A stretch of DNA of 64,000 bases from Owenia fusiformis (taxonomy: Eukaryota; Annelida; Polychaeta; Sabellida; Oweniidae), in contig CAIIXF020000011.1 of the NCBI GenBank assembly GCA_903813345.2, forward strand, positions 8,208,571-8,272,570. The letters run 5' to 3'. This document shows, piece by piece, positions 6,320 through 64,000 of the stretch; within the stretch, counting starts at the first letter, position 1, and every line of letters starts with the position of its first letter. A program made the translations under genes and the position numbers. Below the pieces are notes generated by a model. That model did no database searches. It was not told the origin of the DNA and was given only the letters and a program-made list of their open reading frames with translations.

Positions 6320-6710
6320 CTGTATTCTAAAACGTTAATTAAGTAAAGGCTAACCTATCGATTGTTTGAAAAAGAATGAAAATGCTGTCTAAGTTTCGAT
6401 GGTTATAATGTTATAAAAACTCACGGCTATAACACACATGGTATATATGATTGTAGAATCCATAACCACAACAACTCATGAAGTCCCATTAGTGAAATGT
6501 ACACGATGGCTGCATATAATTGATGGGATATATTCTTCTCATCAATTGAAACAACATGATGAAGGACACCTACAATACAGCTGACCAACATACACAACTT
6601 ACTTAAGAACTAAACTTATCATTTCAAACATTTAGGTAAAGGTACATCATAGGCCGGCCTACTGGACAAGATATTTCCGTCTAGCCATCTTCAGAGAGAC
6701 GAGCACCAAT
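6320..6710. promoter_or_regulatory. Shared intergenic region of the divergent pair, copy A
   Basis: Only 391 bp separate the two start codons, which face away from each other, so both 5' UTRs and promoters must lie here or in undetected upstream exons. Copy B keeps the same arrangement (20327-20720) with few changes. A TATAAAAA string at about 6412 in copy A is altered to TTTTAAAAA in copy B, so it is not a safe TATA call. Bidirectional control is an inference from spacing. Confidence 0.45.
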
Positions 6711-9700: not shown

Positions 9701-12589
9701 GGCTTCCCTCCTCTTTTTGCTGTTTAAGGATTTAGACTCAGTGCATTGTGGAATGACCATTCCTTGAAGGACGTTGCTTTCCAAAATTTGCTCGAGATGC
9801 TTGCATCAAATGTCAATTTTAGGACACAACCCTTGAAAGGAATTGCCATTCCACAATGCATTGATTCTTTGGCTTAAATTATTTTCACACATTGCAAAAT
9901 ATTTTCTACAAAGTCACCTAAAACATACCAAATCACTAAAATAACATATTTCTACTGAAACTTTTTGCGAGGGTCAAGTATTTGAAAAACATCAATTACA
10001 GCTCCTCACCTAGCAACTATACAAAACAAATGCATTATTGATTATTTTATAATTCACTAAAGTATCATCATATTTGAAATGTAACATATAAGATTACATT
10101 TAGAAATGCTTTAAATTCATTTTTAATTATCAGATTCACTCGCACTGTTGATGAAGATTTTGATGATAAATCATCTTTAGCCGATATATGATCGATTTTT
10201 TGGGTAAATAAGAATCCTTAATTCACTAATTGTCTTTAAATGGCTCTGACTATTGAAATTAATAGGTGACAATTGATGATGCACGGGATGGTAAGTTGAA
10301 GATACGTAACTTGCTCTTTTCCTTTGTATGTTCACAATAATTGATAAGGATTGTTCTCCCTAGAATGACATTTGCAATGGTTATGTTCAATGCAAAACTG
10401 AGTACGTTTGACCACACCCGTGGACAACACACATACGTGTAACGTTTTAGAAACATGTCCATGGCCAGAGATACATCGCCAATGTACGAGCTTTGGCTTT
10501 TTTCACAATTTTGGCTAAAAATCATACGAAAGTGCTCAGAATGGTGAAAACTGCATGGTTTTGTAAAAATTGGGAACATCATGATATTGCATTGTATGCG
10601 TAATAACATCTTTGGCGCTTCCCCATCCCCTATTACAATAGTAGCATTTGTATTTGGGAGATCCATGACTCTCTGAAATAGTTTAACCATACATACGAAA
10701 TTGTTACCTAGTATACACAAATGTTAAAATGGTTCGTCAGTGTAAGCAACAGCTCCAAATCAATGATTCGTCAGAGTGATATTGGTCGTTCGTCAGTGTA
10801 AGAAAAGCGAGGGACTAAATACGTGAATTGTGTCTTTTTTAACATATAAAACCTAAAGCCATCGACACATTCTCAAACTAGACTATCTTCCTTAACTTCG
10901 AGCCAAATTATTATCCACAACGTGACTTATAAGTAGGTGTAAATCGGGAAATAAAAAAATCTTACCGAAACCTTGTCCCGGAGGAAGTTCCGCCATGATA
11001 CACCGACGATACGTCTGTGTAATTAGGTGGGTAGCAGTGACATTGGCATTGACAAGAATATCCACTTTATTTTGGGTGAATTGTTCCTTCGTCTTTTACT
11101 CAACAAAACTGAGAAATACACCTAATATCATTGAAAACATTCCTAAATTCTGCAACTTAGATATCGTTTTCCGTATTTACCTTATTTCTTGTATGGCTCA
11201 TTTGAGTTTATGTGTTTTTGTTGTTTTTTGGCAGTGATGCGCCTGATTACGAAGTGAACTATATAGCGGAGACACTTAACAAAATGTTTAACTGCGACTA
11301 CAACTCTGTCCATATTGAGAACTTTAAAAGTGACGGTCCACTACCCGCAATTCATTCAGTGTCATACAAACAATGCATAAAACAGAATGGCCTCAAAAAA
11401 TGGCCCAACATTACCTATAGTCATTGTGATAGGCCTACCTATATGAATGATATTCCTCCAGAGTGTGTTAACCCAGACGTCTATGACGATATTTCACTAC
11501 ACCAAGGCAACAAGAACAGAACAACTATAATGCAACATTTCAACACATATAACTCAAAGGTGAAGCTCAAATGGAATCGTTTGTTAAGATGCACTGACGA
11601 TTTGAGAAAAAATTGCTCAGAATCTAATCAAAGAGTTTATAAATTGATTCGCATGAACATGAAGACTGCTGTAACGCTCTTGGAAAGATATTCCGACATT
11701 AAAGTGATACATTATATCAGGGACCCTCGAGGTATTCAGAATTCCAGGGTCGACACTGTAACATCTTTTGCATTTGAGGATAGAATGACCCTTGTAGAGT
11801 CGTCTGATTTACTCTGTAGACTGATTTGGAACGACATTCTAGTTGCTTCAAGACAACCTCTGCATATTGCTAGGAGGATACTACAGGTGAATCAATTTGT
11901 TTGTTGATTGTTTTTCCTTTTTTCGTTTCTGTTCATCTTCAGATTATGTCTAATGCTTTATGATTTTCACATTTTCTAGTCATTAGGGAATTACTTCTTA
12001 CTACCATGGGGTATGATTTTAACAATGCAAAACATCTTTAAGACTTATACAAATACGTTAACTGCATGACAATCAAATGTACATGCAGTTTCACGGTTGC
12101 AACAAAGCAAATTGTTATGTAACAATATGGCAGTGTACTCTACAATGTCACACCACGTTTGTAATTAATTGTCATACTATGTTGATTATTAATTCTATGC
12201 TGGCATACGACGTTGGTAATTAGATTTTTGCCAACATCTAGTTATTATCGCCACCCAGTGATGATATTCATAAAACTGTAATTAAGGAAATAAGAAATAA
12301 TGTTATTTTCCAGGTGAGATACGAGGATGTTGTTAACGACCCAAAGAACACAATAGAAAAAATTGACGAATTTCTGGATAGAGAGTCACAACCAGAGATG
12401 CTTGACTGGTTGAATTTGAATACTAATTGTCCGAATATGACACAAACTTTGTCAGACAGTCAACCATTTGCCTTATGCAAAAATGCATCTTACACTATGG
12501 ATAAATGGCGCGAACGCCTCAGTCCAGAAGACATAGCTGGGATAACTAAGACATGTTCCAATGTTCTCAAGCATTTTAAGTATTCATAA
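6711..12589 (+). CDS. Carbohydrate sulfotransferase (CHST-like), copy A
   Basis: Five exons (6711-6825, 8136-8239, 8336-8535, 11235-11886, 12314-12589) splice in frame into 448 residues. Residues 17-38 form a signal anchor, giving type II Golgi topology. The 5'-phosphosulfate-binding loop is GYKRGGTSFFGELL (87-100). The 3'-phosphate-binding motif is IHYIRDPRGIQNSR (298-311), with R302 and S310 expected to contact PAPS. VRYEDVVNDP opens the last exon, a conserved position in the family. This is the pattern of membrane carbohydrate 6-O-sulfotransferases (CHST1/3/5/7 group), which move sulfate from PAPS to Gal, GalNAc or GlcNAc; the acceptor here is unknown. All introns are GT..AG. Intron 3 is 2699 bp because of a transposon, against 210 bp in copy B. 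No stop or lost motif was found, so it looks functional provided intron 3 is still spliced. Confidence 0.9.
8548..11039. mobile_element. 2492-bp DNA transposon with ~290-bp terminal inverted repeats in sulfotransferase intron 3
   Basis: The ends are CACTGCTACCCACCTAATTA and its reverse complement. The inverted arms continue, nearly identical, to about 8840 and from about 10750. The 5-bp ACATT is duplicated at 8543-8547 and 11040-11044; copy B has ACATT once at the same site, so the insertion boundaries are exact. CAC termini with a 5-bp target duplication recall Transib-like elements, but no transposase domain was recognised inside, so it is probably non-autonomous. The 153-codon open frame at 10259-10720 (minus) resembles nothing I know. 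A smaller palindromic MITE is nested at about 9723-9878. Confidence 0.9.
9723..9878. mobile_element. Small palindromic MITE nested in the 2492-bp transposon
   Basis: GTGCATTGTGGAATGACCAT at about 9741 faces its inverted partner near 9843-9870 (CCATTCCACAATGCATTGA); TTTAAG marks both outer edges. Total length is about 155 bp with imperfect arms of ~45 bp. Family and target duplication are uncertain. Confidence 0.55.
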
Positions 12590-12713
12590 TTCAATTGAAA
12601 AGCATTCAGTTGTCCCCCCAACATTTGATCTGTAAGGATCTGGTAAACATTTTAAACGCTATGCGTCACACTGTATATATTTGTATTTGTATGTTTAAAC
12701 ATCAGTCGAAAAG

Positions 12714-18425: not shown

Positions 18426-18864
18426 TACTTATAGCCATAGTGGCGTGAACATATTCCTGTTCGATTCTTTGGAGACATGAACTCTCGATGTGATTATAGT
18501 ACACGTCTCAAAGCTTTAAAAACTGTAGTGGCGGTTAAGCAATATTATAATAGTAACTTGGACTTCAATTGCCCCTGAGTAAAGCTGGGTCGTCGATGAA
18601 ACGTCTGTTTAGCTAAAATGTTTTCAAATAAACTTGTGACAATTTTTCTATTCCTACTCTTAACTCTATTCCGTAACTTGTAAGGACTGATTTTACTATA
18701 AGCGTCTTCTTCTGTGACCTTTTTTGGCCAGCTCTATTGGTTTATATCAATATAATTATTGACTTGATTGGATGAATGTGACAAAAGTGATATAATTCAA
18801 AAATGCAATAACATATGAACTTGGATTTCTCTGACATCTATGTGTACATGTATAGCTGTAGTTA

Positions 18865-20326
18865 TCAAAGCGTATGATTAAAGGTTGACAAATCAAATGA
18901 TGAAAAGTTTGCAATATTAGAAAGCCAGGATAGAAATGGAACTGATGGGTCAGCTGCAGAAAGATGTCTCTGCCAGTCATTTTTAAGAAACCATACATCC
19001 CCGGCTGAATCGGCGTTCTTAGACGGATGCCACACGGTAACAGTGCTTAGGTTGACTGCAGTCTTGCATGCAACAGCCCTGCACGCCAATTCTTTTGACA
19101 GAATTGTCACCTTTAGGCCATTATTTCCAGTCCCTTCCCAAACCCAATCAGAGCACGTGGGACCACTACATAGGTTGGTGATGGATTTAGACCTAGTTGT
19201 ATTCATTCCGTAAAGTATATAGTTCACTATTCCTTGATCAGTGTTCAGAGAATTCAGTGTCTTCGTATAGTTGTGACCAAACTCCCAAAATGACGCTGAA
19301 ATCAAAGAAGAAATTATAAACATAGTACAGGGTAGCTTAAATGTGAACTTTCTGGTCACTCGTCACAACTGCGCTAACTAAAGACAAATAAGCAATCTTA
19401 CATTTCTCCAGGGAGCTCTTAAATAACACACATCCCATGTTGAGTGCTAAAGTCCATGTTTGACTAATTACTCCTTTCTTATTTCCCTTCGCTCCTATGA
19501 TATCACTCTTTGGAAACATATTAAAAAGTGGATTTGGGTTAAGGAGTGGCAAGGCATCGCTATCATAGTTGACCACATCAAACCCAAGGTGGTTTAACGA
19601 CCGCCACACCATCAGGCGAATATGCCAGATACACTTCGGGAAGTTACAATCTTCGCTTAAAAGGGAAGGCATAAACTCAGACGTATCTACCCAAATACAG
19701 TCGATGTTTCTGTTGTCTAGAAAGTGTTTCAATTTTTTATCTGGTGTTACTAATAGTGTCGTTCCAATTGGTTCCTTAAGTCGCAAATGTGCGCTAACGA
19801 GCCAGTTGAATATTTGGGCTAGATAGGGTCCAGTTAACGTCAATGTGTTTACTCTTTTTTCATTCCATTTTCGTGAAATCTTGGAAAGGTTTTTATAGAA
19901 ATCAGTATGTATTATTTTCTCTATGTCTAAAAAGTTGTGAACATCCTTTCCATTTACTCTAATGTTGTGCAACGCTTCATTCAATGTTCTGTCATTTGCT
20001 TTCGTAATCTCCAGTACAGCTTTGAACTCATTATTATTCACTATATCACTTGACTCACTGTCAACAACAACAGTTTTTAACTCTGTAGTTTCATCAGTTT
20101 GTATTACATCTGCATCTTGTTTTGAATGTATTGCACTTATCCGTTTCGGCCTGCTATCCTGGATAACGTTTTTATGATTCATTCGATCTGGGGAGAAGTC
20201 CCGTTCCAATATAGTTGAGAAAACGATGAGTACAAAAATGACGGCTGCTAAACTAGGAATTATGTATCTATTGGAAGATCCCATGTTTGTAGCATTCAAA
20301 GCTAACAAAATGTGTTTGCAGGACAT
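18865..20326 (-). CDS. Type II membrane glycosyltransferase-like protein, copy B
   Basis: Exons 19402-20326 and 18865-19295 give 451 residues with the same exon sizes, phases and motifs as the copy at 4865-6319: anchor 22-40, D255-S-D257, DVWFLKNDW. I see four amino-acid differences from copy A: T118A, Q182R, L240V and C368G. T118A removes the N116 glycosylation sequon and C368G removes a lumenal cysteine, so folding or glycosylation could differ. No disabling change was found. It faces away from the sulfotransferase at 20721, as in copy A. Confidence 0.85.
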
Positions 20327-20720
20327 GTGTATTCTAAAACGTTAATTAAGTAAAGGTTAACCTATCGATTGTTTGAAAAATAATGAAAATGCTGTCTAAG
20401 TTTCGATGGTTATAACGATGTTTTAAAAACTCACGGCTATAACACACATGGTATCTATGATTGTAGCATTCATAACCACAACAACTCATGAAGTCCCATT
20501 AGTGAAATTTACACGATGGCTGCATATAATTGATGGGATATATTCTTCTCATCAATTGAAACAACATGATGAAGGACACCTACAATACAGCTGACCAACA
20601 TACACAACTTACTTAAGAACTAAACTTATCATTTCAAACATATAGGAATAGGTACATCATAGGCCGGCCTACTGGACAAGATATTTCCGTCTAGCCATCT
20701 TCAGAGAGACGAGCACCAAT
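20327..20720. promoter_or_regulatory. Shared intergenic region of the divergent pair, copy B
   Basis: A 394-bp region between divergent start codons, nearly identical to 6320-6710. The changes from copy A include a 3-bp length difference, substitutions near GATGTTTTAAAAACTCACGG, and a few near the sulfotransferase start. No core promoter element can be fixed. Confidence 0.45.
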
Positions 20721-23700
20721 ATGATAGCAAATGGGAGGCCAATTAGTTATGCTGACTGTCAGAACGTCTTTAAGATTATTCTGTTTACTGTAATGGCTAC
20801 AGCGTTTTGTATCCTTGTACTATTTACCCTGGCAGGTATGTGTGAAGATTTATTTTTAATTAGTTTGTCATGGCGGCTATATGCATAGATTTATTGTCAC
20901 TGTACCTATACAACATATATATATATTTTAACATTTGTACAGCACTAAACTTCAATGTTCCTCCGATATATTGGAAACACTGGTAGATTAAAGTATAAGT
21001 GTATGATTTTGTAGTTTCTTATTCTGAGATGCTCGTGTACAAAAGTAGATGCAAAACAAATTAACGGAATGCCGAATCTGAAAAATTAATTGTAATCCGA
21101 CTTCCGGATGACCGTTTATTATGACCTTGTTCAATTTCAAGTCTTATTTTACATATCGTATATGCTTGAAAATCGAGGTGATGATAAGATGTGGTCGCCG
21201 ATTTTCTAATTTTCTCAAGGTCGGACTGCAAATTAGAATGTTTTGCTTTCAAATCTTCCGGACAAGTTATGATTGAACGGCTCCCTATTACATATCAATT
21301 GTTATTAATAAAAGATTTGCACCAGATTTCCGAAAGTACAGGGCGTTTAGTAAGTAGTGAGCTAATTCGTAGACTGAAAAACTCTGAAAAGGTCACGTTT
21401 TAACCTGCTAACCAATATTTTTTAATTCATCTGATTTCCAGGAGTATGTATTTCAAATCTCAAATTTGAGATTCGACATTTTTGACATTCATGAAACATT
21501 CATAAACAAATCTATACTCTGCTGATTTACTCTTTATTGAAATTGATTAGAGATATAAGAGTTCAACAAATGATTCAACTACAAAAAGTGCAAATTCACC
21601 TTAGAAAGTGCAAATTGAGAAGATCTCTTTAGATTCACGTCCAAATTTGTCACATTTAACTTATCTTGATGGCTTTTACTAGAGCCAGTTTACATTTCAT
21701 GTAATTAAAAATGCTTAAGGCCTACATTATGATCTGACGATTGATGCTTTTTGTGTGTACATGTACAATTGGTCAGTTAAGGTAAGACTGCCTCTATGTA
21801 TACTGCTAGCGAACGTAGACATAAAAAATATACCTCCGTGTTAAAATTTCCACGGCGATCCTACGACCTGTAAAATCTTGGATAAGCCGTACGTATTGTG
21901 TCCGTGGGACAATCGTTGATCGTCAATCTTCAACGATCGCCGTAAATATTTCTCTATTCTAGACCAAACATGACTGAAATATAATAAAAATAACAGAGAT
22001 CGAAAATTAGTTAATATCTTGGATAATTGCTTCTTAATTTGGGGGTTAGCTGCTTTTGTTATGATAAAGATTTGAGTCATCAATTAAGGATATCTTAGAA
22101 GTACAAGACATTGTATTTATTTCTAGACAAAGATGGCACAAGAAATTTGGTAGCCTCGGATCACCTAACCATTGAAACACACGTTGATGCTTCCCAAGGA
22201 GTCGAGGCAGCTCATGGAACAGATGACGAAGTAAGGTTTGACTTCATTGGTGAAATAAACATGCATAAAATCTAAAATTGTATTTCAATTTCAATTTAAT
22301 ATTTACGGTATTCATTTTATTTTTTGTGTAGTTTAAACCAATGAAAGGTGTCACAAAGGTTATCGTATTAGGATATAAAAGAGGGGGGACATCTTTCTTT
22401 GGAGAGCTACTCCATACATACCCTAAAACCCAATATCTGTTCGAGCCGCTTGTTGGAGTCTATGCTCATATGTATGGGGGTGTGACTGTGCCGCCATGGA
22501 GCATTAGAGCCTTCGCTAATGGAACGATACGGTAGGCGACATTGGCATTGACAAGAATGTCCACTTTATTTTGGGTGAATCGTCTTAAACTCCTTCGTCT
22601 TTTACTCAACAAAACTGAGAAATACACCTAATATCATTGAAAACATTCCTAAATTCTGCAACTTAGATATCGTTTTTCCGTATTTACCTTATTTCTTGTA
22701 TGGCTCATTTGAGTTTATGTGTTTTTGTTGTTTTTTGGCAGTGATGCGCCTGATTACGAAGTGAACTATATAGTGGAGACACTTAACAAAATGTTTAACT
22801 GCGACTACAACTCTGTCCATATTGAGAACTTTAAAAGTGACGGTCCACTACCCGCAATTCATTCAGTGTCATACAAACAATGCATAAAACAGAATGGGCT
22901 CAAACAATGGCCCAACATTTCCTATAGTCATTGTGATAGGTCTACCTATATGAATGATATTCCTCCAGAGTGTGTTAACCCAGACGTCTATGACGATATT
23001 TCACTACACCAAGGCAAAAAGAACAGAACAACTATAATGCAACATTTCAACACATATAACTCAAAGGTGAAGCTCAAATGGAATCGTTTGTTAAGATGCA
23101 CTGACGATTTGAGAAAAAATTGCTCAGAATCTAATCAAAGAGTTTATAAATTGATTCGCATGAACATGAAGACTGCTGTAACGCTCTTGGAAAGATATTC
23201 CGACATTAAAGTGATACATTATATCAGGGACCCTCGAGGTATTCAGAATTCCAGGGTCGACACTGTAACATCTTTTGCATTTGAGGATAGAATGACCCTT
23301 GTAGAGTCGTCTGATTTACTCTGTAGACTGATTTGGAACGACATTCTAGTTGCTTCAAGACAACCTCTGCATATTGCTAGGAGGATACTACAGGTGAATC
23401 AATTTGTTTGTTGATTGTTTTTCCTTTTTTCGTTTCTGTTCACAATTTCCCCAAAGTAAGAGAATCTTCAGATTATGTCTCATGCTTTATGATTTTCACA
23501 TTTTCTAGTCATTAGGGAATTACTTCTTACTACCATGGAGTATGATTTTAACAATGAAAAACATCTTAGACTTATAAAAATACGTTACATGCATGATAAT
23601 CAAATGTACATGCAGTTTCACGGTTGCAACAAAGCAAATTGTTATGTAACAATATGGTAGTGTACTCTACAATGTCACACCACGTTTGTAATTAATTGTC

Positions 23701-24115
23701 ATACTATGTTGATTATTAATTCTATGCTGGCATACGACGTTGGTAATTAGATTTTTGCCAACATCTAGTTATTATTGCCACCCAGTGATGATATTCATAA
23801 AACTGTAATTAAGGAAATAAGAATAATGTTATTTTCCAGGTGAGATACGAGGATGTTGTCAACGACCCAAAGAACACAATAGAAAAAATTGACGAATTTC
23901 TGGATAGAGAGTCACAACCAGAGATGCTTGACTGGTTGAATTTGAATACTAATTGTCCGAATATGACACAAACTTTGTCAGACAGTCAACCATTTGCCTT
24001 ATGCAAAAATGCATCTTACACTATGGATAAATGGCGCGAACGCCTCAGTCCAGAAGACATAGCTGGGATAACTAAGACATGTTCCAATGTTCTCAAGCAT
24101 TTTAAGTATTCATAA
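20721..24115 (+). CDS. Carbohydrate sulfotransferase (CHST-like), copy B
   Basis: Exons 20721-20835, 22127-22230, 22332-22531, 22742-23393 and 23840-24115 have exactly the same lengths as copy A (115, 104, 200, 652, 276) and give 448 residues. Exons 3 and 5 encode identical protein. Differences from copy A: K2I, V5G, F10Y, L22F and I45N in the anchor/stem, and A151V, K195Q, T200S, P207S and N232K in exon 4. The PAPS-binding motifs (87-100, 298-311) are unchanged, so changes fall outside the cofactor site. Intron 3 is only 210 bp and holds the empty ACATT site of the copy-A transposon. Membrane sulfotransferase of the Golgi; acceptor unknown. Confidence 0.9.
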
Positions 24116-24319
24116 TTCAATTGAAAAGCATTCAGTTGTCCCCCCAACATTTGATCTGTAAGGATCTGGTAAACATTTTAAACGCTATGCGTCACACTGT
24201 ATATATTTGTATTTGTATGTTTAAACATAAGTCGAAAAAACGGAAGTAAATATTTATTGAAACACTGCATTTTGCTTAATTCGGATGTGCTTTTTCCTAT
24301 GTTCAAAATGAACCCAAAA

Positions 24320-34900: not shown

Positions 34901-34933
34901 CGTAGTCAATTTCTTAGGGACATCAAACCAATA

Positions 34934-37776
34934 CACGGGTTGTATCCAAAGCCCCGTTATAATTGAGAGATCGCGAGCAAGTTCCCGCTGAAATCACGAG
35001 CAAAGTCCTTTTTATTTAATTCATCTGGAAATATGGACCAAAAAGGTAAGAATACGCATTACTGTTCTTTGATACTTTAGGTATACTTTCAGAACAGGTA
35101 TATCTTCACAAACAATGACATGAAAGATAACTATTTTTACTGGCATGGAAGAAACGGGCGTCAATATGCACGTTTGCATAATTTACTGTTAACATATTAC
35201 TTTTATGGTTAAAATAGAGACAACAACTACGATATACATACCTCATTATGAATATTGGACCAACATTGTATGTATTGATAAGTTTGTTTTCAAAAACATC
35301 CACTGTGGGGGGTGAAATACATCATTGAAGGTGTGCCAGTGGCCCCGCTGAAATTATGAGGAAGCCCCGCTGAAAACATGAGGAGGTCCCGCTGAAAACA
35401 GGAGCAGATATCACGAGTACCCGCTTCGATCACGAGGAAAGCTCATTACTATTACATAAAATATTGAGGTTCTTCAAATAAACGTACACGAAAGACCAAG
35501 TTAAGTATTTCTAATAATTACTGTATATATACTGTTTCATTCTAGGGCCAGGTTTCTAATGTTTCCATTCCAACTTCAAGCCACCAGAGATTTCATCAAA
35601 CATTTTATAGAGTTACATCCATATTAAAATGTATAGGAGAAAGGTGGATATCATTTCAAGAATGAACTTAATTGAAGCCTGAGGTTCAGCAGGGTAATGA
35701 GTCTTGTATTAAACAAAGACACCCCAAGTTGCAAGAAGATGAAATTTAGAGAGAAAGGAGAACCACAAAGTCTCCATGATAATTCAGGTTCTACTTTTAT
35801 AATTTAACAATAACATTTAACAATAACATTCAAGTTTTTGTTTTTAAATATTTATTAAAATAATGATGATTTGTATTCCATACCTGATAATTTTCAGGGA
35901 CATATCAACCGGGAATATATTCCATATCCGGGCAAAATTTTTTCGTATGTCCCGCTCAAACGAGGATCCGGGACATATAAATCGTATGTCCTGCATAAGC
36001 CATTTTCCTGGACATATTGTTACGCGGTAAACACGATACAAATATATGTCATATTCCACAATGAATATGGCATATTCACTTGTGGAGTATGATAGATTCA
36101 TCTGCGGTATATGGCATACTCACCTGCGATGTAAGGCATATTCTGCAAGTGAGTATGACATATTCTGCGAGCATGGGGTATTTACTGAAATCAATGTATC
36201 ACATATTCAATACGGAATATGCCATACTCACCTGCGGAATACGCCATATACCACAGCTGAATATGGCATATACACCCGTATCACAAATACCACGCAACCA
36301 TGAATATATGCCATATTCCGCGTAACACATACGATGTTACGCGGAGTATGGCATACATTTATGGTTGCGTGTTATTTGTGATACGGGTATACAGTATATG
36401 CCATACTCACCTGCAGTTTATGGCATATTCCGCAGGTGAGTATGCGATATTGCGCCGTGAATATGCGATACATTGATTTCAGTGAATACCTGATAGTCAC
36501 CTGCAGAATATGTCATACTCACTTGCCGAATATGTCATATACCGCAGGTGAAAATGACACAATGATTACCCGTTTCTTCAATCAATGCAATTGACAATTG
36601 CGTACTTCTGTATCGTGTTCTCATTGCTTAGTGGGTATGCAATATACTGCAGCTGAATCTGTCATACACCGCAAGTGAATATGCCATATTTATTGCAGAA
36701 TATGACACATATTTGCATCATGTTTTCCGCGTAACACGTGCGTTTAACATAACCTACGATTAATTGTTAATGATGAAATTATTTGATTATTATTATTTCG
36801 GACTCATAATCGGATGATGTACTCCTTTGTTACTTACATCTAGCAGTTGATCCATAAATTGCCTTTTCAAACGTGTGCGCCATTGGTGCTGAATCCTCTA
36901 AGGTAGTAATATACTGAACTACAGTATAATGTAACTTCAGTGAAATATAAATATATATTGCATACAAAGAAGAACGAGTTCTTTGAAACTTGTCAAAAGT
37001 CGTGGAATGGATTTAAATCTTCTCTTGGTAAATTTCTCGATGGAGTCAGGTCGAAATACATTAAGTGAAATGGTTTTATTGGAATCATGCTCGTAGCCAG
37101 CTTTTGGTAAGGGGGGGGGGGGGGTGCTCGAACCGATAATAACAATGACAATGATATATAATATATATGTGCTCTGTAGAGTATCAATAATTAATATATT
37201 TATTACGTTGGCTAAAGTCGTGGCAGATTTGCAAAGTCAAATTGGTCTTCACTCCATTTTAGAGAGCCACTTGCTCCTGATTTCAGCGGGACCTCCTCAT
37301 GTTTTCAGCGGGGCCTCCTCATGTTTTCAGCGGGATCTTTAGTTTATTGCTCATGGTAGAAGCGGGGCCTCAAGGGATATGCTAAAATTGAAATATATAA
37401 TTTTTTGTGAAACTTTAGGAAGTGAAACTCACAATACCTTCATTTCATATTACTATGACCATTTCATCTGAAGGGCAATGACCTTTTTCAGCTATAAAAT
37501 ATAGAAATATATAGATAAAGATTCAAGATGATACATTCTCTCTCCAATTATCGAATAACAAAACTCAGAACATCAGCTCGTGATCCTTTTTTGCAGAAGT
37601 TGCTTTTTAGTATCAATACCATGTAATAATTGAGTAAAATTAAATGAAAACGCTTTTTATAACATACAATTTAAGTAAACAAAAGATAACCTTTCTTTTC
37701 TTTTAATTGCTCGCGATTTCAGCGGGTATTTGCTCGCGACTTCTAAATCATAGCGGGGCTTTAGATACTACCCGTG
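34934..37776. mobile_element. Giant imperfect inverted repeat (foldback), ~2.84 kb
   Basis: The arms of ~1.4 kb meet near 36331. The outer ends are CACGGGTTGTATCCAAAGCC and, reversed, CACGGGTAGTATCTAAAGCC. Inside are CCCGCTGAAATCACGAGCAA facing TTGCTCGCGATTTCAGCGGG, and a set of CCCCGCTGAAAACATGAGGA repeats (35340-35450) facing their complements at 37265-37370. The central loop is CCGCGTAAC..GTTACGCGG. It is non-coding. The right arm includes a 14-G run at 37111-37124. Confidence 0.85.
36040..36740. repeat. Central degenerate array of GAATATGCCATA / CACCTGCGG motifs
   Basis: About 20-30 bp blocks of the form GARTATGYCATAYTCACCTGC and their inverses alternate through both inner arms of the giant palindrome. 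Because the motif is itself nearly self-complementary, many alternative hairpins are possible. Confidence 0.7.
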
Positions 37777-38430
37777 CAATAGTTAGCAGCTAGGCCACCT
37801 GAATATATATTTTGTGCCTTAATTAAGTAACGCTCCGAATTCATATAGAACAGGGTCTTGGGCTTAGTTTGAGTATAGTAGCTTGTTCCTGACCTCGACA
37901 ATGAATGTGATATTGGGTCTAAAGATGGCGCCCCGCATCACTCTTGCCCGTATGCAGCTTGTGGCAAGGGGAAGCCTTTTTGGCTTAAAACTCCCGAAAA
38001 GTGCTCAGTATGATGAAAAACTGAATGATTTTGAAAATATTTCTAGCCAGGTAGCTTCTTCCCGTGGTATGACTTGAACAAGCATCAAGTCATGCGATGT
38101 ATGTCAAATAGTAAGAGGCCTCGTTTGGGGGTCCAGGGAGACTAGTGCCCTAAAGTTTAGTGCCCAAGCTTCCCCGAACCACCGTCAATGATTATGTAAC
38201 AGGTAAAGTATATTTCTTTGATCCTAGGATGATGATATTGGCGTATCATTTCCTATTTTCATTTTTGTAAAGACAGGCCTGCCATCCAGATCCTGTAACG
38301 GATCTTCTCTCTTACATATGAGTCACGGTAGGGGCCCCAGATGTTCCTAACTCTTGGGTAGTGGTCCATGATGTGTTCTTCATTAGCAGCCTTGTGATGA
38401 TAGGGAAGGGGGGGGGGTGTAATTCAAGTA
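37777..38430. other. No established gene; two short coding-like segments
   Basis: A 64-codon plus-strand frame (37883-38077, with TLARMQLVARGSLFGLKLP) and a minus-strand segment at about 38275-38400 (DHYPRVRNIWGPYRDSYVRE) have protein-like composition. Neither is recognised nor clearly bounded by splice sites. A 10-G run lies at 38408-38417. Confidence 0.25.
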
Positions 38431-38439
38431 CATATCAGT

Positions 38440-39360
38440 AGATATCGGGTTGTCCCCGATTGTTTTGTGCGATTGTCTCCAGTTGGAATAACTTAGTTGA
38501 GTAAATCGGTATCAACGTTTCGTTGTTGTTTATTGGTTGTGCCTGATTGTGTTTTGATGGGTTGAGTAAATCGATTGAGTATTTGACTACGCCTGGTTGT
38601 GTAACGGTGGGTTAGTGTCAAGTAGGTATAGGTTTTGCCGAAATGTGTTGTGTACGTTTGAGACTAGGTTCTCTTTTGATGGTTGTTAGTCTGGTGATTT
38701 AGTATCGGGTTGTGTCCCATTGTGTTATGTTAATCTTATAATGGGTTGTTTTCTCTTGTGAATATTTTCTGTTGGTTGGCTAGCTGGTTGTGGCTAGTCG
38801 GGTGAGGTATCTTGCTGTGTCTGATTGTGTTGTGTGATTGGCGTTGTCTCCAATTGGGTTAAGTTAGTTGTGTATCTCGGTATTACAATTTTAATGTGTT
38901 TTTTTTGCCTGTGTCTGATTTTGTTTTGATTGTTTGGTTTTGGGTTTTGAAAAATTGTGTTGTGTTACTTGAACAATGGGCTGTGTTTGCTTTTGTTGGT
39001 TTACCATTGGGTTGTGCCAAATTGTGTGGTGATAATTTCACAGTTCGATGTGTTTTCATGGTTGTCAGTTTAGTTGTGCCTGATTGTGTTTTTATTGATT
39101 AGTGTTGGATTGTGCACAATTGTGTTGAGTTAATTCAACAATTGGTTGTGTTTGTCTTTGTTGTCTTATTATTGGGTTGTGACATATTGTGTTAATCTGA
39201 CAGTTGGTTGTGTTTTGGTGGTTGTAAGTCAGGTTGCGTAATAGGTTATATATGTCGAGTTGTGGGCTGTGTCCGATCAGGTTGTGGTGTTTATTGGGTT
39301 AAGAAACAAATGGTTGGTTTAGGGTATTATGTTGTTGGTTTATCAGTTGATTCTATGTAG
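38440..39360. repeat. GT-rich, strand-asymmetric degenerate repeat block
   Basis: For about 900 bp the plus strand is dominated by G and T, with recurring words such as GGTTGTG, TGATTGTGTT, GGGTTGTG and TTGTGTTGTG. There is no fixed period and no coding frame worth calling. Confidence 0.7.
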
Positions 39361-41256
39361 ACCCCAAACAGGGTATTATGATTGTGAGATATTCAACTGG
39401 TGTGGTAGGCGTTAGCTTTGCGTCGTTCTCTGTTGAGCTGGTCCCCTGTTGTTCAATTAAATCAAGAAAAACAATGCTAATTTATCTTTTTACATAATAT
39501 ATTTTTTGTTGATTTCTCATAAAAAACATTACTTTTATTGCATAACTGATATATTTGTGTCGCTTTCTATGATCAAATATGTTACTTTGCTCCCCTCCTT
39601 AGTTTATATGAGGCATGGGTTTTCAACTAAAGCCCATGTATGAGGAAGGGGGGGGGGGGGGGGGTGGCTTATGTGAAAACGTATGGTTTCCGAATGCCTT
39701 GGCCTTGCCCAAGTCGCCATTTTCTATATTTATTTGATCTTGAATTATTACCAAAATATACAACTGCAAAAACATGAAATTAAAGGTCCATGTGCAATAT
39801 GGCAAGTGATTTTAGAAATGTTTACGCATTTTGTGGCATAATGCAGTCACTGCACGTCACTTAATGACCACTATTCAGCCTATCTGTTTTCAAGCCTTTG
39901 AATATTCCCAAAGGTATAATTTGACACTGAATTGGTTATTGTAAACCTAGAAACAATCTTTTCTGGCCTAAAGGATATTCTTTATTTTAAAATTGATGTC
40001 ATGAAATTAATAAATGACACCTTAGGGATGAGAGGGTTAATATGTATTTTTGCACTCACCAAAAATACTTTTGGAGTTGTGATTCTGAAAGCTGACACTC
40101 CCAATGGTGTTTTGAAATCTTAGTGCAGGTGAAGCGTTAATAATTACGTACTTCAAAAAACGAACTACGAAACGAAAATTATCGAAATACGTATCCGTAA
40201 ACGTAACGAGATACGGATGCGGATACGTTTTAGCTAATTCGTTTTGCGAAACCTCTCTGTTGTCATCTCGATATACGTTGTCCCATTGAACGTACAAATC
40301 TGAATTCACAGTTAACCTTTATGTAGACAACGTATTTTTCATAACACTAAGGAGCAGGGGGATCAGATTCATTTAAAACTGAAACAGAACAATCCAGTAT
40401 TACTAATTCAACTTGATTGAACTATATTGAACCTCTGCACTTTCCAGATATTGCATAAGCGGGATTTCATCAAAGTCAAAGTCATCTTCGATTAGCTAGT
40501 ATATGTCTCTCCATGAACTCCTAAGATTATTAAAATTCATAAATGTGCAACATTACGTAACGTACCGACGTCGAATGGTCAAAGAGGTTGGAAGATAACT
40601 ACCCCCAGGGAAATATTAAGCACCATATCAACACTTTCATAAAATAAAATAGCATTCAACAAGAGGAAAAAATCACTTTTACCTGTTTATCTGTACCAGG
40701 GATACATGAACATGTTCGTTGAACATCACTTGTTACTCATAAAACCCTTAATGCGTTTTGAAATTAAATCATTGCATTGTTTACATTTCATTTACAGGGA
40801 CAACGTACATTGACGATGACAACGTACATTTTTGATTTTTTAAATTATACCAAATACCAATCCTTCAACTGTTACCTCGAAATGTCCAATGTGCGTTCAC
40901 CTTAAGCATAGCAGAGGTTCCAGCTCTGCATGATTCGAAACGTTAAAGAAGATTGATTATAAAAAATAACGTCTCCCTTATATATACATAAGAATAAAAA
41001 GACACACAAGAATAAATAATATGTAAGCACTTTGACGGGGATTCGAACCTAGAACGATGGAAAATGATATTTAACAAATAATTATATACAGTACTTACCA
41101 GCGCCTCTATCCATTCATGGAATATTTCCGTTCTAAATGATTTTATTAACGTTGTTATCTACAAGTGCTCATTTCTCTGATTGAACGACAAAAAATCATT
41201 TGCCTTTGACCAATTTCTTGGAATACACCACAACTGTTTGTAATGTAAGTTATTAT
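39361..41256. other. No gene recognised
   Basis: Contains a 17-G homopolymer at 39648-39664, the right AGAGAGG-type TIR near 40240-40258, and, from about 41085, a diverged R1-like repeat matching 32270-32455. Confidence 0.4.
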
Positions 41257-41330: not shown

Positions 41331-41459
41331 TTGACAGATTTTTTTCATATTTGGATGAAAGATGTATATTGGTGAACAGTTTTACGCAAAAATTTTTATT
41401 TTCAAGATGGCCGCCAGTTTAAAAATGGCGGGATTTTTTCGCAAAAATCTTATGTTTTT

Positions 41460-43425
41460 CATTTTAAATGGAAAGGAAACAACAGATCATGAAATCATTT
41501 CCAATGGATTTAATAATTTTTTTACCAATATTGGTATAAATCTAGCCAAGGAGATTCCAAAATCCAAAAAATGCTTTAATGAATACCTAGCAAGAGCTCA
41601 AAAAGTTCAATCATCTATTTATCTCAAAAAGACCTCAAAAACTGAGCTTGAATTAGAAATGTGTCTTCTAAAATCTTCCTCGCCTGGACCTGATGGGATT
41701 CTACCATCACTTATTAAGTCTGCAAGACAGTTTTTAATTGATCCACTCTTGTATATATTTAACTTATCTCTTAAATCTGGTATTTTCCCAGACGCCCTCA
41801 AATTGGCCAAAGTAACACTTTATTTAAAAAAGGTGTCACTACAAATCCTTCGAACTATAGACCAATTTTAGTTTTATATGTATTTTCTAAATTGTTAGAA
41901 AAGCTCATGCATGCCAAACTCACTGGTTTTTTAGAACGTTTTGAAATTATTTTTACTTATCAATTTGGATTTCAGAAATTCAACTCTACCTACATGGCCA
42001 TTTTATATTTCATTGAACAAATTCGAAAATCAACTGATTTGGGGAAAACGAGCATTGGCATAACATTAGATTTTTCCAAGGCCTTTGACACAATTAATCA
42101 TGACATTTTGATACAAAAACTTGAATATTATGGCATCAGAGGAATAGCTAAGTCCTGGTTTGAAAGTTATTTAAAAGACCGCAAACAATATGTCACCATT
42201 AACAATTATGAATCTAAACAATCATCTCTAAATTGTGGTGTTCCGCAGGGCTCGGTACTTGGACCACTATTATTTATTCTTTACATAAATGATCTGCCTT
42301 TGGTTGCCCCTAATCTAAAATTTATTATGTTTGCTGATGACACCAATCTTCTTGATAGTGATTATGATTTAAATGAACTTATGACTAGAACTAATGCAAA
42401 CTTGAATTCAATAGATGACTGGATAAAAGCAAACAAACTTTCACTTAATATTGGCAAAACCAATGCTATTCTATTTGGACCCCGAAAAAATCAAACAAAT
42501 CTGAATCTTAAAATACGCAATGAGAACATAAATTTCCGGGAAAAAATTGACTTTCTTGGAATTATTATTGATAAAAACTTGAAATTTAAAGAGCACATAA
42601 AATCTGTTGAAACAAAGATTTCTCGCGTCATTGGTTCTCTTTATGACATTAAACATCTACTTCAAATAGACAGTTTCAAAACAATTTACTACTCATTGAT
42701 ACACTCACAATTAAATTATTGCAACATAATCTGGGGTAACACATTTAAATCATTTTATGATCGTCTACATAAACTGCAGAAACAATTCTTAAGGCTAGCT
42801 TTAAATAAGGATAGACTTTCTCACTCCGCTCCCCTATTTAAAGATCTTAGAATATTAAATATTTTTGATGTCAACAGATATTGTACTGGTCAGTTCATGT
42901 ACAAAATCTTTAATAAGCACCCCAGTCTTCCAAAAAATCTATTTCAAGACTTGTTTGATATCAACATTAATATTCATCATCATTACACAAGACAATTGCA
43001 TTATTTTCATATCCCTAAATGCTTTAAACTTTCCCTTCGCTATCTGGGTCCTAATCTTTGGAATGCTCTACCACATGATATTAAAAAATGCTCCACTCTA
43101 AATATTTTCAAATCTTCATATAAAAAACTACTCATCTATCGATAATGTATAATACCAATATCATACTATACTGTTGATTTTATACTGGTACCCGATTTTT
43201 GTAACATTTTTACATTGTACATCCTTAGATTAATTGTTAATACCATTTTTATATACCTACATGTAACATAATATAAGTGTTTTATTTTATATGTAGTCTA
43301 GTTGACATTTAAATGATTTCTGTTAAACCGCAACATATACCCACTAGGGTGTCTAGCGGCTTGTTTTTATAGTGTATATTATATAAGAATTATGAAATAA
43401 ATAATTGAATTGAAAAAAAAAATAG
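41460..43425 (+). pseudogene. 5'-truncated LINE with full reverse transcriptase (jockey/CR1-like), one frameshift
   Basis: The first frame (about 41471-41830) covers the region before RT, with SSPGPDGILPSLIK and FNLSLKSGIFP. A missing base near 41815 shifts into the second frame, which runs to 43145. That frame has YQFGFQKFNST, ITLDFSKAFDTINHDIL, GVPQGSVLGPLLFILYINDL and MFADDTNLL, that is, fingers, palm and the catalytic FADD box. Then come the thumb and the C-terminal domain with NIIWGNTF and LGPNLWNALP. The 3' end has ATAAATAATTGAATTG followed by an A-run at about 43410-43420. The endonuclease is absent. It was probably active recently, since only one break interrupts ~560 codons. Confidence 0.9.
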
Positions 43426-43554: not shown

Positions 43555-43905
43555 TAATTTTGAGATGTTTTTGAAGTATAGCTTTATTATACTCAAATAA
43601 AAGGCAATTTAGAGTAGATTGCAAACATTGTAACGTTTTTCTGATTCGGGCCTCAAAAAATTCAAAATGGCCGCCTAATGCGGGATTTCGCAATTGTTTT
43701 CTGATCTCTTAAAAGTATGGCTATATTATACTCAAATTGAAGGAATTTCAGAGTAGATCACAATTATGGCATCTTTTTTCTGATTTGCGCTTCTGAAAAT
43801 TCAAAATGGCTGACTAGAGCAGAAATTCGCCATTACTTAGAGTTATCTTGAAAGTATGGTTACATGATACTACAATGATTTAAAATATTTATTGAAGGTA
43901 AGAGT
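43555..43905. repeat. ~135-bp tandem units (TATACTCAAAT..CAAAATGGC)
   Basis: Three diverged units share GTATRGCT.TATTATACTCAAAT, AGAGTAGAT and TTTTTCTGATT followed by TTCAAAATGGC. A single related unit lies at 49725-49815. Confidence 0.6.
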
Positions 43906-49133: not shown

Positions 49134-49853
49134 TTACTGATGACTGGCACACTTCGTGTATTGATATAAATGTAAATAGTAGATGGGTTAACTGCATTTT
49201 AGGGGGTCTGGACTTCAATCTATGATGCAAACGTTTCCTTTGACATGAGAACTTACCTTAGGACCATAGAAACAAATTTATCCAAAGACACACGCCAGAT
49301 GGCGCTTTATATTGGAAATATTCACATTTTTCAAAATGGCCGCCAAAAATACAACGGAGACAATATATTTTCTTCCATGCATGCTATAATGATACGATTG
49401 GTGCCTAAATATACATTTTTGTGGGTGAAGAATCAATTTAGTATGGGTTTGAGTCTTGAAAATAAGGAACTTCCTCTTTATATTAAAAAATATGCCTTTT
49501 TAAAATGGCTGCCAGAGATGTAACAAATATGATATCTTCACTTGTATGCATGCTACAATAGTAAGATTGATGTCCAAGTATACATTAATGGGGTGGTAGA
49601 ATCCATTTGATACGGTTTACAGTCTTTATTTTCCCAATGAAAAAAGTTCAGTGGGGATATAGTGAAGCCCTCCGTCCGCCAGTCTGTCAGTCCATCGTCT
49701 GTCTTAAATATGATTTTGCAATTATTTTCAGATTCCTTCAAACTATGGCCATATATACTCAATTAAATTGAAGATGGGGTTAATTTAATGATTAATGCCT
49801 CAGAAAATTCAAAATGTCCCAGAGAAGGAGTTGATTACATATTCACTGGTGAT

Positions 49854-51800: not shown

Positions 51801-52864
51801 TTGATTCTCCTATCCCATAAATGTAAAATGTTGACACCAATGGTATCAGTGTAGCATGCACTGATGTGAAGATATCATGATTGTTATATTTCTGGTGGCC
51901 ATTTTTAGAAACACATAATTTCAAATAAAGTGAAAATTCTAATTATGAAAGACTCCAAACCTATTTAAATGGATTCTACAACCCGATTAATGTATACTTT
52001 GACACCATTCTTATCATTGTAGCATGCTTAGAAGCGAAGATATCTTCTTTGTTATATTTCTGGCAGCCATTTTGAAAAATGCATATATTTTGAATATAAA
52101 GTGCAAGTGCTGAATTTACAAGACTCGAAACCTAATTAAATAGATTATACAACTGCATTAATGTATTTTTTGACACCACTCTTATAACTGTAGCATGCAC
52201 AGAAGCAAAACTATTGTCTCTGATGTATTTTTGGCGGCCATTTTGAAAAAATGTATATATTTCCAATAAAAAGCGCTTGTGTCTTTGGATAAATTTATTT
52301 CTATTGCCCTAAGGTATTTCCATGCCAAAGGGGACATTTGTAAGATAAGATATCTTAATTTGTAAGTATTCGTAAGGTAAGATATCTATAATTAGTTATA
52401 TTTCTGGCAGCCATTTTGAAGAACGCGTATATTTTGAATATAAAGTGGAAGTTCTTAATTGTCAAGACTCAACATCTAATAAAATAGATTCTTCAACTAC
52501 ATCACTGTATTTTTGACACCAATCTTATAATTGTAGCATGCACAGAAGCAAAGGTATTGTCTCTGGTGTATCTTTGGCGGCCATTTTGAAAAATGCGTAT
52601 ATTTCCAATATAAAGCGCCATCTAGCTTGTGTCTTTGGATAAATTTATTTCTATTGCCCTAAGGTACTTCCATGCCAAATGGGACATTTGCATCATACAA
52701 TGAAGTCCAAATGTAGTTAACCCATCTACTAAAACATATTAATAGAACAGCATGAATTCACAACAAAAATTTAAGCTCAATGCATTTAAGAAAAGACAAG
52801 ACATGAATGGCTCAGCACTATCATTTTATAGGCTAAGGCGTTCGAAAAACATGATGGAGGCTAC

Positions 52865-59330: not shown

Positions 59331-59939
59331 GTTCAAATTGTTTAATTGTTCTATCTCAATTCACATTTGTCCTAAGTCAGCTTTTCTAAAAAGAAATGAC
59401 TCAAATTGTTCTATCTCCACTTGTCATGTTTTTAAAAAACATACTTAAACTAATCAAATAATTCCCATTTTTTTGCAATATCAGAGAAATTTAATATAAA
59501 TCAGTTGTAGAAACATCAAAAAGCTGGGTTTCATACAAAAAAATCAATTGAGTATAAATGTTGAGTATAAATGTTGATAAACTTACCCGGAAGCCTAGAC
59601 ATACACGTTTAGACGATGCTATTTTCAGTTCAGTGTAAGAGTAAATGCCCGGATATCGAGGCTTTTTCGTGTAAAGTTTTAACCAAGCATCTAAAATCGG
59701 GTTATATTGCGTGTAGAATTTATCGATATCAGGGCCGCTACATGCCAGTGAATATTGTAATTCATCTTATGTCAGGTTTAAATTTAAAAAACATTGCACT
59801 GGCCAGGAATCGAATCATAGCCAGCTGCATGACAGGCGATCATACTACCACTGAACCACCAGGGCATTCAGGTTAAGCTACATTATGATTCATGAATATT
59901 GTAATTCATCTTATGTCAGGTTTAAATTTAAAAAACATT

Positions 59940-60009
59940 GCACTGGCCAGGAATCGAATCATAGCCAGCTGCATGACAGGCGAGCAAACTACCACTGAAC
60001 CACCAGTGC
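59940..60009 (-). tRNA. Representative tRNA-like unit (Gly-type body, GUC anticodon), probable pseudo-tRNA
   Basis: Stem lengths read 7-4-5-5, with an A discriminator. The acceptor stem is perfectly paired. The D-stem pairs 3 of 4 positions, one of them a G-U. The anticodon stem has two Watson-Crick and one G-U pair of five, and the T-stem is mostly mismatched. The loop CTGTCAT places GUC at positions 34-36, whereas animal tRNA-Gly of this body type has GCC; a single C to U change at position 35 explains it. The AT-rich spacer supplies a T-run immediately after the 3' end. Confidence 0.5.
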
Positions 60010-61177
60010 CTTCAGGCTAAACTAAATTATGATTCATAATTATTGTAGTTCATCTTATGGTAGTTCCTAAATTTAAAAAACAACAACATTGCACTGGCCA
60101 GGAATTGAATCGTAGCTAGCTGCATGACAGGCGAGCATACTTCCACTGAACAACCAATGCCTTCGGGTAAAACTAAATTATGATTCAAGAATATTGTAAT
60201 TCATCTTATGGTAGTTCTTAAATTAAATAAAACATTGCACTGGCTAGGACTCGAACCATAGCCAGCTGAATGACAGGCGAGCATACTTTTACTGAGGCAT
60301 CAGTGCCTTCAGGTCAAACTAACATATGATTCATGAATATTGTAATTCATCTAATGTCAGTTTTAAATTTGTAAAAAACATTGCACTGGCCAGGAATTGA
60401 ATCTTAACCAGGTGCATGACAGGCGATCAAACTAACACTGAACCACCAGTGCCTTCAGTTCAATCTAAATTATGATTTATGAAGATTGCTATCCATCTTA
60501 TGTCAGTTTTTAAATTAAAAACATTGAACTGACTAGGAATCGAATCAAGGAAAGTAACATGACAGGCGAGCATATTACCACTGAACCATCGGTGCCTTCA
60601 GGTTAAACTAAATTATGATTAATAAATATTGTAATTCCTATTATGGTAGTTCTTAAATTAAAACATTGCAATGGCCAGGAATCTAATCATGGCCAGCTGT
60701 ATGACAGGCGAGCATACACACACTGAAACAACAGTGCCTTCAGGTCAAACTAAATTATGATTCATGAATATTCTAATTCACCTTATGTTAGTTTTAAATT
60801 TAAAAAAAAACATTGCACTGGCCAGGAATCGAATCATAGCCAGCTGCATTACAGGCGATCATACTACCACTGAACCACCAGTGCCTTCAGGACAAACTTA
60901 ATAATGACTAATGAATATTGTAATTCATCTTATGTCAGTTTTTGATTTAAAAAAAACATTGCACTGGCCAGAAATGTAATCATAGCCAGCTGCTTGACAG
61001 GCGCGTATACTACCAATGAACCACCTTCACCATTCAGGTGAAACTAAATTTTGATTCATGAATATTGTAATTCATCTTATGTCAGCTTTTAAATTTAAAA
61101 AACATTGCACTGGCCTGGAATCGTAACATTAAATTATGAATATTGTAATTCATCTCATGTCAGTTTTTTAATTTAAT

Positions 61178-61258
61178 AAAATTACAAATTACTGTTCATT
61201 AATGTTGTACATCTTCATAATGAAGGAAATAAATCAATACAATACAATACAATACAAT
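61178..61258. repeat. Foreign tail with ACAAT repeats inserted in one array unit
   Basis: Where a unit should read ACATTGCACTGGCCAGGAATCG there is unrelated sequence with GGAAATAAATCAATACAATA followed by further ACAAT units. An AATAAA-like signal plus short tandem tail is the usual look of a retroposon 3' end. The array resumes at ATAATCAGCTGCATGACAGG. Confidence 0.6.
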
Positions 61259-64000
61259 CATAATCAGCTGCATGACAGGCGAGCATACTACCATTGAACC
61301 ACCAGTGCATTCAGGTGAAACTAAATTATGATTCATGAATATTGTAATTCATCTTATGTCAGTTTTTGAATTTTAAAACATTGCACTGGCCAGGAATCGA
61401 ATCATAGCCAGCTGCATGACAGGCGAGCATACAACCACTGAACCACCAGTGCCTTCAGGTTAAATTAGATTATGATTCATGAATATTGTAATTCATCTCA
61501 TGGTACATGTAGTTCTTCAATTAAAAAACAACAACATTGCAACGGCCAGGAATCGAATCATAGCCAGCTGCATGACATGCGAGCATACTTCCACTGAACC
61601 AACAGTGCCTTCAGGTCAAACGAAATTATGATTCATGAATATTGTAATTCATCTTATGTCAGTTTTTGAATTAAAAAAAAACATTGCACTGGCCAGGAAT
61701 CGAATCATAGCCAGCTGCATGACAGGCGAGCATACTACCACTGAACCACCAGTGCCTTCAGGTTAAATTAAATTATGATTCATATGAATATTCTAATTCA
61801 TCTTATGTCAGTTTTTGAATTAAAAAAAACATAGCACTGGCCAGGAATCGAATCATAGCCAGCTGCATGACAGGCGAACATACTACCACTGAACCACCAG
61901 TGCCTTCAGATTAAATTAAATTATGAATCATGAATATTGTAATTCATCTAATGTCAGTTTTTGAATTAAAAAAACATTGCACTGGCCAGGAATCGAATCA
62001 TAGCCAGTTGCATGACAGGCAAGCATACTACCACTGAACCACCAGTGCTTTCAGGTCGATCCAAATTATGATTCATGAATATTCTCATTCATCTTATGTC
62101 AGTTTTTGAATTAAAAAAAACACTGCACTGGCCAGGAACCGAATCATAGCCAGTTGCATTACAGGACTTCATGTCAAACTAAATTATGATTCATATGCAT
62201 ATTCTAATTCATCTTATGTCAGTTTTTGAATTTAAAAAAAAACATTGAACTGGCCAGGAATCGAATCATAGCCAGCTGCATGACAGGCGAGCATACTACC
62301 ACTGAACCACCAGTGCCTTCATGTCAAACTAAATTATGATTCATATGAATATTTTAATTCATCTTTTGTCAGTTTTTAAATTAAAAAAACACTTCATTGG
62401 CCAGGAATCGAATCATAGTCAGCTGCATGACAGGCAAGCATACTACCACTGAACCACCAGTGCTTTCAGGTCGATCCAAATTATGATTCATGAATATTGT
62501 TATTCATCTTATGTAAGTTAAAAAAACACAAAAAACATTGCATTGGCCAGTAATCGAATCATAGCCAGCTACATGACAGGCGATCATACTTCCACTGAAC
62601 CAATAGTGCCTTCAGGTCAAACGAAATTATGATTCATAAGAATATTCTAATTCATCTTATGTCAGTTTTTGAATTAAAAAAAACATTGCACTGGCCAGGA
62701 ATCGAATCATAGACAGCTGCATGACAGGCGAGCATACTACCACTGAACCACCAGTGCCTTCATGTCAAACTAAATTATGATTCATATGAATATTCTAATT
62801 CATCTTATGTCAGTTTTTGAATTTAAAAAAAAACATTGCACTGGCCAGGAATCGAATCATAGACAGCTGCATGACAGGCGAGCATACTACCACTGAACCA
62901 CCAGTGCCTTCATGTCAAACTAAATTATGATTCATATGAATATTCTAATTCATCTTATGTCAGTTTTTGAATTAAAAAAAACACTGCATTGGCCAGTAAT
63001 CGAATCATAGTCAGCTGCATGACAGGCAAGCATACTACCACTGAACCATCAGTGCCTTCAGGTTAAATTGAATTATGATTTATGAATATTGTAATTTATC
63101 TTATTGTAGTTCTTAAATTAAAAAAAAATATTGCACTGGCCATAAATCGAATCATAGCCAGCTGCATGACAGGCGAGCATACTTCCACTGAACCAATAGT
63201 GCCTTCAGGTCAAACTAAATTATGATTCATAAATAGTGTAATTCATCTCATGTCAGTTTTTAAATTTAAAAACATTGCACTGGCCAGGAATCGAATCATA
63301 GCCAGCTGCATGACAGGCGAGCATACTTCCACTGAAGCAACAGTGCCTTCAGGTTAAATTAAATTATGATTCATTAATATTGTAATTCATCTTATTATAG
63401 TTCTTAAATTAAAAAAAAATTGGACTGGCCAGGAATCGAATCATAGCCAGCTGCATGACAGGCGAGCATACTACCACTGAACCACCAGTGCCTTCAGGTT
63501 AAATTAAATAATGATTCATATGAATATTCTAATTCATCTTATGTCAGTTTTTGAATTAAAAAAAAAAAACACTTGCCAGGAATCGAATCATAGCCAGCTG
63601 CATGACAGACGAGCATACTACCACTGAACCACCAGTGCCTTCAGGTTAAATTAAATTATGATTCATATGAATATTCTAATTCATTTTATGTCCGTTTTTG
63701 AATTAAAAAAAACATAGCACTGGCCAGGAATCGAATCATAGCCAGCTGCATGACAGGCGATCATACTACCACTGAACCACCAGTGCCTTCAGGTTAAACT
63801 AAATTATGATTCATGAATATTGTAATTCATCTTATGTCAGCTTTAAATTAAAAAACATGTCACTGGCCAGGAATCGAATCAAAGCCAGCTGCATGACATA
63901 CGAGCATACTTCCACTGAACCAACAGTGCCTTCATGTCAAACTAAATTATGATTCATATGAATATTCTCATTCATCTTGTGTCAGTTTTTGAATTAAAAA

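Follow-up and report, generated by a model that had tools for sequence, protein, structure and literature searches.

Several families of tandemly repeated DNA with parts resembling transfer RNA (tRNA) have been described, among them PolIII/TAN of a newt, OAX/satellite I of Xenopus, Rana/PolIII and Hy/PolIII (PMC10702118); the Hydromantes and Xenopus cases are also tabulated in PMC9659126. In the passages of PMC10702118 that deal with these families, the tRNA origin of Hy/PolIII was doubted, a link of the tandem families to short interspersed elements (SINEs) was judged inconclusive, and only the newt family is described as transcribed in vitro. Here a stretch of 64,000 nucleotides from the annelid Owenia fusiformis (assembly GCA_903813345.2, contig CAIIXF020000011.1, positions 8,208,571 to 8,272,570, forward strand), called the window below, was found to end in a tandem array whose units each contain a minus-strand body of 70 nt that resembles tRNA-Gly(GCC). 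From its sequence, the array likely goes back to a pseudogene of tRNA-Gly(GCC), or else to a tRNA head that belonged to a short retroposon or SINE, and has multiplied into a satellite. By anatomy alone, that is, a short noncoding head-to-tail unit with an apparently tRNA-derived segment, it may be grouped with tRNA-derived tandem satellites of the PolIII/TAN and Rana/PolIII kind, from which it is set apart by the length of its unit and by a tRNA-like body retained in full.

PolIII/TAN of Cynops pyrrhogaster is, like the Owenia array, a tandem repeat with a tRNA-like sequence for which no similar SINE is named in that account, but its unit measures about 360 nt against 147 here, and the capacity for in vitro transcription is a feature of the newt family (PMC10702118). 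OAX/satellite I is likewise tandem, and part of its unit probably stems from a tRNA, whereas this unit was deemed too long for a proper satellite and its claimed SINE origin is given as unconfirmed in the same source. Rana/PolIII of green frogs is again a tandem unit with tRNA similarity and, as described there, without SINE similarity beyond it; it differs in its unit of about 250 nt, in amounting to up to 10% of certain genomes, and in a lower tRNA similarity of 64% over 64 nt, compared with 56/70 here (PMC10702118). In the limpet Patella caerulea, PcH-sat was proposed to stem from a tRNA-class SINE, and like the present array it has a short AT-rich unit (179 bp), but it is reported without boxes A and B (PMC11121367). 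No published description of the Owenia repeat was found by title or abstract, in literature mostly outside subscription journals. Exact spacer and body patterns had no match in viral contigs, the body pattern had none in prokaryote genome contigs, and no phage sequence was matched by the array in blastn; these collections are not meant for animal DNA, and the three results carry little weight.

The array was reported by Tandem Repeats Finder with a period of 147 bp and 29.3 copies, in agreement with the roughly 29 units counted in a first-pass annotation made from the sequence. Its right end is the window edge, where the repeat continues. When the 70-nt consensus body was searched semi-globally with at most 25 edits, it matched 28 minus-strand bodies, every one within the array; elsewhere in the window no body lay within this limit on either strand, and the remaining 59.7 kb held no match to the unit profile at E up to 10. 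Start-to-start steps fall between 142 and 156 bp in 24 of 26 cases, a wider range than the 145-151 bp first given. The two outliers, of 280 and 268 bp, are explained by a unit with a deletion and an insert and by a 5'-truncated unit lying in between (period 122 in Tandem Repeats Finder). Comparisons between units were made on 27 of them, leaving out the partial right-edge unit and the truncated unit at 62125, which was counted for the anticodon only; a 25-row alignment, A1, also omits two units that bear a deletion or insert (ends at 61028 and 61308).

Descent was judged against nominal reference sequences of nine human tRNAs and of Drosophila Gly-GCC. Among the nine, human tRNA-Gly(GCC) is closest to the consensus body, with 56/70 positions identical, followed by Gly-CCC (53/70), Gly-TCC (52/72), Glu (50/73) and Asp (47/72), while His, Lys, Val and Ala gave 39-45 matches; Drosophila Gly-GCC matched at 55/70. 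The minus-strand, Gly(GCC)-derived body of the first-pass annotation is thereby upheld. The anticodon, said there to be changed from GCC to GUC in essentially every unit, indeed reads GTC in 26/28 bodies, and GTA occurs in exactly the two for which it had been noted (60815 and the truncated 62125). Since Gly(GCC) outscores Asp, GTC would most simply be a single change in a Gly-type body and not the mark of an Asp tRNA. Of the six CpG sites in the human Gly-GCC sequence four are lost in the consensus, three of these as TG or CA, and of the nine in the Drosophila sequence seven are lost, six as TG or CA; this loss, mostly to TG or CA, suggests decay of methylated CpG preceding amplification. One 16-nt segment holds 8 of the 14 consensus differences from the human sequence (p=0.04).

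The cloverleaf is eroded in the consensus, which pairs at 7/7 positions in the acceptor stem, 3/4 in the D stem, 3/5 in the anticodon stem and 2/5 in the T stem, so that the pairing loss noted earlier for the T and anticodon arms is borne out. Pairing kept in all four stems, taken as the mark of a functional tRNA, is absent from the consensus. The intact acceptor stem of the first-pass annotation holds for the consensus but not for most individual units, only 12/27 of which pair at 7/7 (including a broken unit, U10, scored with its insert columns dropped). In a check of the units with tRNA models, of the kind that had been proposed, the gathering score of the Rfam tRNA model was reached by three units, with E<=1 in 12, and the body identical to the consensus (match 61685-61755) fell marginally under it at 28.2 bits against 29. 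ARAGORN, in its bacterial setting, called one unit, as tRNA-Asp(gtc). Single-strand folding of four units gave z from -0.25 to -1.89 and no cloverleaf; as the human tRNA-Gly likewise gave none (z -1.48), folding is uninformative here.

A model is proposed in which the founder, before amplification, would have lost pairing in the stems of its anticodon and T arms, acquired GTC in place of GCC and shed most of its CpG sites. Because the lost stems and GTC are common to nearly all units, the founder was probably a pseudo-tRNA already. It would then have multiplied head-to-tail together with an AT-rich flank of about 76 bp, by unequal exchange or a related mechanism, with units re-duplicated locally, and the units would have drifted, no selection being detectable on promoter boxes, acceptor stem or cloverleaf. 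The order of these events, the exchange mechanism and the lack of function, like the intronic position considered below, are what we infer. One 5'-truncated and one insert-broken unit inside the array support its reading as a satellite. The foreign insert of the broken unit U10 spans about 61187-61258 (approximate bounds) and ends in an ATACA run at about 61235-61258; it may represent a retroposon's 3' end.

Three near-identical pairs, each differing by 2.0%, were found at steps 1, 4 and 12 in the numbering of the 27 units (U19/U20, U16/U20 and U14/U26), which points to repeated local duplication, and growth by recurrent unequal exchange, or by something like it, would fit. A strict higher-order repeat was rejected, as mean distances by lag are near-flat (0.135-0.148 over lags 1-12) and only local near-identical pairs appear. 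The left part is more diverged overall, with a mean of 13.3 mismatches to the consensus in U01-U09 (120/9) against 8.7 in U10-U27. Simple decay toward the edge was considered but is not claimed: the contrast of U03-U09 (mean 15.3) with 8.7 is a grouping chosen post hoc that omits the two leftmost units, and U08 has only 7 mismatches while the inner unit U18 has 19.

The first-pass annotation had offered two readings, selection on transcription or on end structure, and a satellite grown from a pseudo-tRNA. All p-values for body, spacer and boxes below come from one-sided column permutations, and rates were taken as parsimony changes per site on a FastTree tree of the 27 units, which represent one array of one genome. 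On the tree, body and spacer change at equal rates, 1.414 per site in the former and 1.421 in the latter (p=0.52). No significant protection is seen for boxes A and B together when they are compared with the remaining body positions (p=0.23), nor for the acceptor stem, whose rate is on the higher side (p=0.81). In raw mismatches the acceptor stem has 2.07 per site against 1.68 for the rest, and the boxes lie below the rest of the body at p=0.14. Among changes confined to single units, which are likely recent, the two boxes have 0.64 and 0.55 per site and the rest of the body 0.47, again without protection, and the body has 0.54 against 0.71 for the spacer (p=0.08). Pairing was counted in 25 bodies (24 distinct) against 500 shuffles: standard cloverleaf pairs made up 66.3% compared with 66.1% in shuffled bodies (179/500 at or above the observed value), pairs changed on both sides numbered 2 against 1.3 (150/500), with no excess of compensation, and the covariation score was 0.046 against 0.043 (89/500). 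At the power that a single array affords, the data do not support selection on the boxes, the acceptor stem or the cloverleaf. The depletion of substitutions in boxes and acceptor stem relative to the spacer, which the annotation had suggested looking for, was significant in no comparison, and equal rates in body and spacer were one part of the outcome it had named as making the array an inert satellite; by these rates and the lack of excess compensation, its second reading, a satellite from a pseudo-tRNA, fits better.

Several observations weigh against a satellite drifting without selection. Of the regions compared, the anticodon loop changes least, at 0.57 per site, and differs from the rest of the body at p=0.04, a value uncorrected for the several regions tried and graded weak. 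Raw mismatches over the 27 units are fewer in the body than in the spacer (1.59 and 2.18 per site, p=0.07), also after the T-run region is removed from the spacer (2.02, p=0.15), and fewer in the boxes than in that reduced spacer (p=0.06); the lean between body and spacer vanishes on the tree, where shared ancestry is counted. Box A and a relaxed box B occur together in 17/27 units, and a run of at least four T within 16 nt past the body is found in all 27 (mostly-gap columns dropped), in keeping with the T-runs first noted for most units. The two leftmost units lie near the consensus, with 5 (a part-length unit) and 8 mismatches, and divergence is not simply peaked at the left edge. Homogenisation can mask selection, and the evidence comes from one array in one genome.

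A rival reading is a family of tandem noncoding RNAs transcribed by RNA polymerase III (Pol III), in which many units would yield short transcripts by means of their box A, a weaker box B and the T-runs. The retention of both boxes, as first claimed, stands for box A (TRGYNNARNNG), seen in 21/27 units, and only approximately for box B: the canonical form (GGTTCGANTCC) is found in 1/27 because position 53 is A in 25/27, and 19/27 carry it once A53 is permitted. These counts, the joint occurrence of the two words and the ubiquitous T-runs speak for transcription, as does the example of PolIII/TAN, a tRNA-like tandem repeat capable of it in vitro (PMC10702118). Against it stand the near-absence of a canonical box B and the unprotected boxes on the tree, and the T-runs belong to the homogenised unit and would need no selection. 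A Pol III family is on balance improbable; residual Pol III transcription of some units would be no more than a possibility. If transcribed, the array would add one more case to the few tRNA-like tandem families covered in PMC10702118. For the satellite preferred here, the promoter-like words and T-runs would most simply persist by being copied. The locus would then be a clean case of a dead tRNA gene, or SINE head, seeding a satellite in which such words and T-runs persist, and it cautions that selection in a tandem array is not demonstrated simply by a retained box A, by T-runs or by a consensus whose acceptor stem pairs. With box B, acceptor stem and period corrected, the original observation is largely right.

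The satellite reading allows a tRNA gene as founder as well as a dispersed SINE that contributed its tRNA head, and a SINE-head origin overlaps with it. Satellites derived from SINEs are documented in reptiles (PMC10702118), and PcH-sat was proposed as one in a limpet (PMC11121367), but no dispersed copy was found across the other 59.7 kb of the window, and the SINE head is a possible, though rather unlikely, source.

A chromatin barrier or nucleosome-positioning array has very little probability. Its period of 147 bp recalls such a role but leaves no linker DNA, which counts against nucleosome positioning. The analogy offered, the human tRNA variable-number tandem repeat at 1q23.3, resembles the array in bearing tRNA sequence and binds CTCF, but it consists of GC-rich 7.3-kb units with tRNA genes (PMC4041453). 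A working cluster of recoding tRNAs, in which a Gly-type body would bear an Asp anticodon and to which the prevalent GTC, the ARAGORN call and the three units above the Rfam gathering score might point, is extremely unlikely, the D, anticodon and T stems not being maintained and GTC appearing to be a founder change.

Next to the array lies a candidate coding exon, listed with the other features in the table. It is flanked by a putative AG (59739-59738) and GT (59586-59585), both chosen by eye, and the open frame extends beyond both to 59491-59766 (91 codons). Distances from the array edge are 9 bp to the putative AG and 11 bp to the candidate exon, both of which it precedes; for the exon no Pfam, PDB or phage match was found. 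If the exon is real, the array would be intronic, with the gene and the tRNA-like strand in the same sense; the array is possibly so placed. It is highly unlikely that the array still produces Pol III transcripts in the sense direction, their Gly-type body bearing an Asp-type anticodon, within an active gene's intron beside a splice acceptor; if it did, Pol III traffic or excised RNA might affect the host gene or feed tRNA-fragment pathways.

Table. Coordinates, in window positions, of the array, of representative units and of the neighbouring candidate exon.
Feature	Position	Strand	Basis
Tandem array, ~29 units of ~147 bp	59749..64000	-	Tandem Repeats Finder and unit mapping
Typical tRNA-Gly-like body, GTC, identical to consensus	61686..61755	-	0 edits
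AT-rich spacer example, same unit as body 61686-61755; T-run directly after body 3' end	61609..61685	-	
Body most like a tRNA	61979..62048 (61978-62048 in tool matches)	-	Rfam 37.0 bits; ARAGORN tRNA-Asp(gtc)
Body carrying GTA instead of GTC	60815..60884	-	
5'-truncated unit, GTA, without 5' acceptor strand and box A	62049..62170 (right bound approximate)	-	19 edits
Unit U10, broken by deletion and foreign insert	61107..61308	-	Sequence, alignment; array-like part mapped
Candidate coding exon, 1 nt + 50 codons	59587..59737	-	Sequence and translation, unconfirmed

The rest of the window holds further repeats and coding traces. A Pfam scan of eight open reading frames (ORFs) gave three matches at E<=0.001, to a reverse transcriptase, a sulfotransferase domain and, just below the cut-off, a sugar-transferase family. 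The sugar-transferase-like and sulfotransferase-domain ORFs lie in a direct duplication, 96-97% identical, that pairs 4572-8547 with 18574-22543 and 11039-12712 with 22538-24238; about 2.5 kb between the two parts of the first copy is absent from the second. The reverse-transcriptase ORF occupies 41775-43145 (RVT_1, E 2.5e-32), and an overlapping ORF in another frame (41359-41871) may be its broken start. Nested inverted repeats with tandem repeats of about 22 bp in their arms were observed at 34926-37784, the pair 35344-35406 and 37272-37334 being 94% complementary and the pair 36018-36123 and 36631-36736 87%; they may belong to a non-autonomous transposon of the fold-back or DNA type. Strong strand asymmetry marks the G/T-rich segment 38400-39440 (GC skew +0.27 and AT skew -0.27 over 38001-40000). 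Two further tandem repeats were noted, one of 139 bp in about two copies at 43574-43871 and one of 171 bp in 4.6 copies (51831-52615), of which an inverted relative lies roughly 2 kb away (49228-49627).

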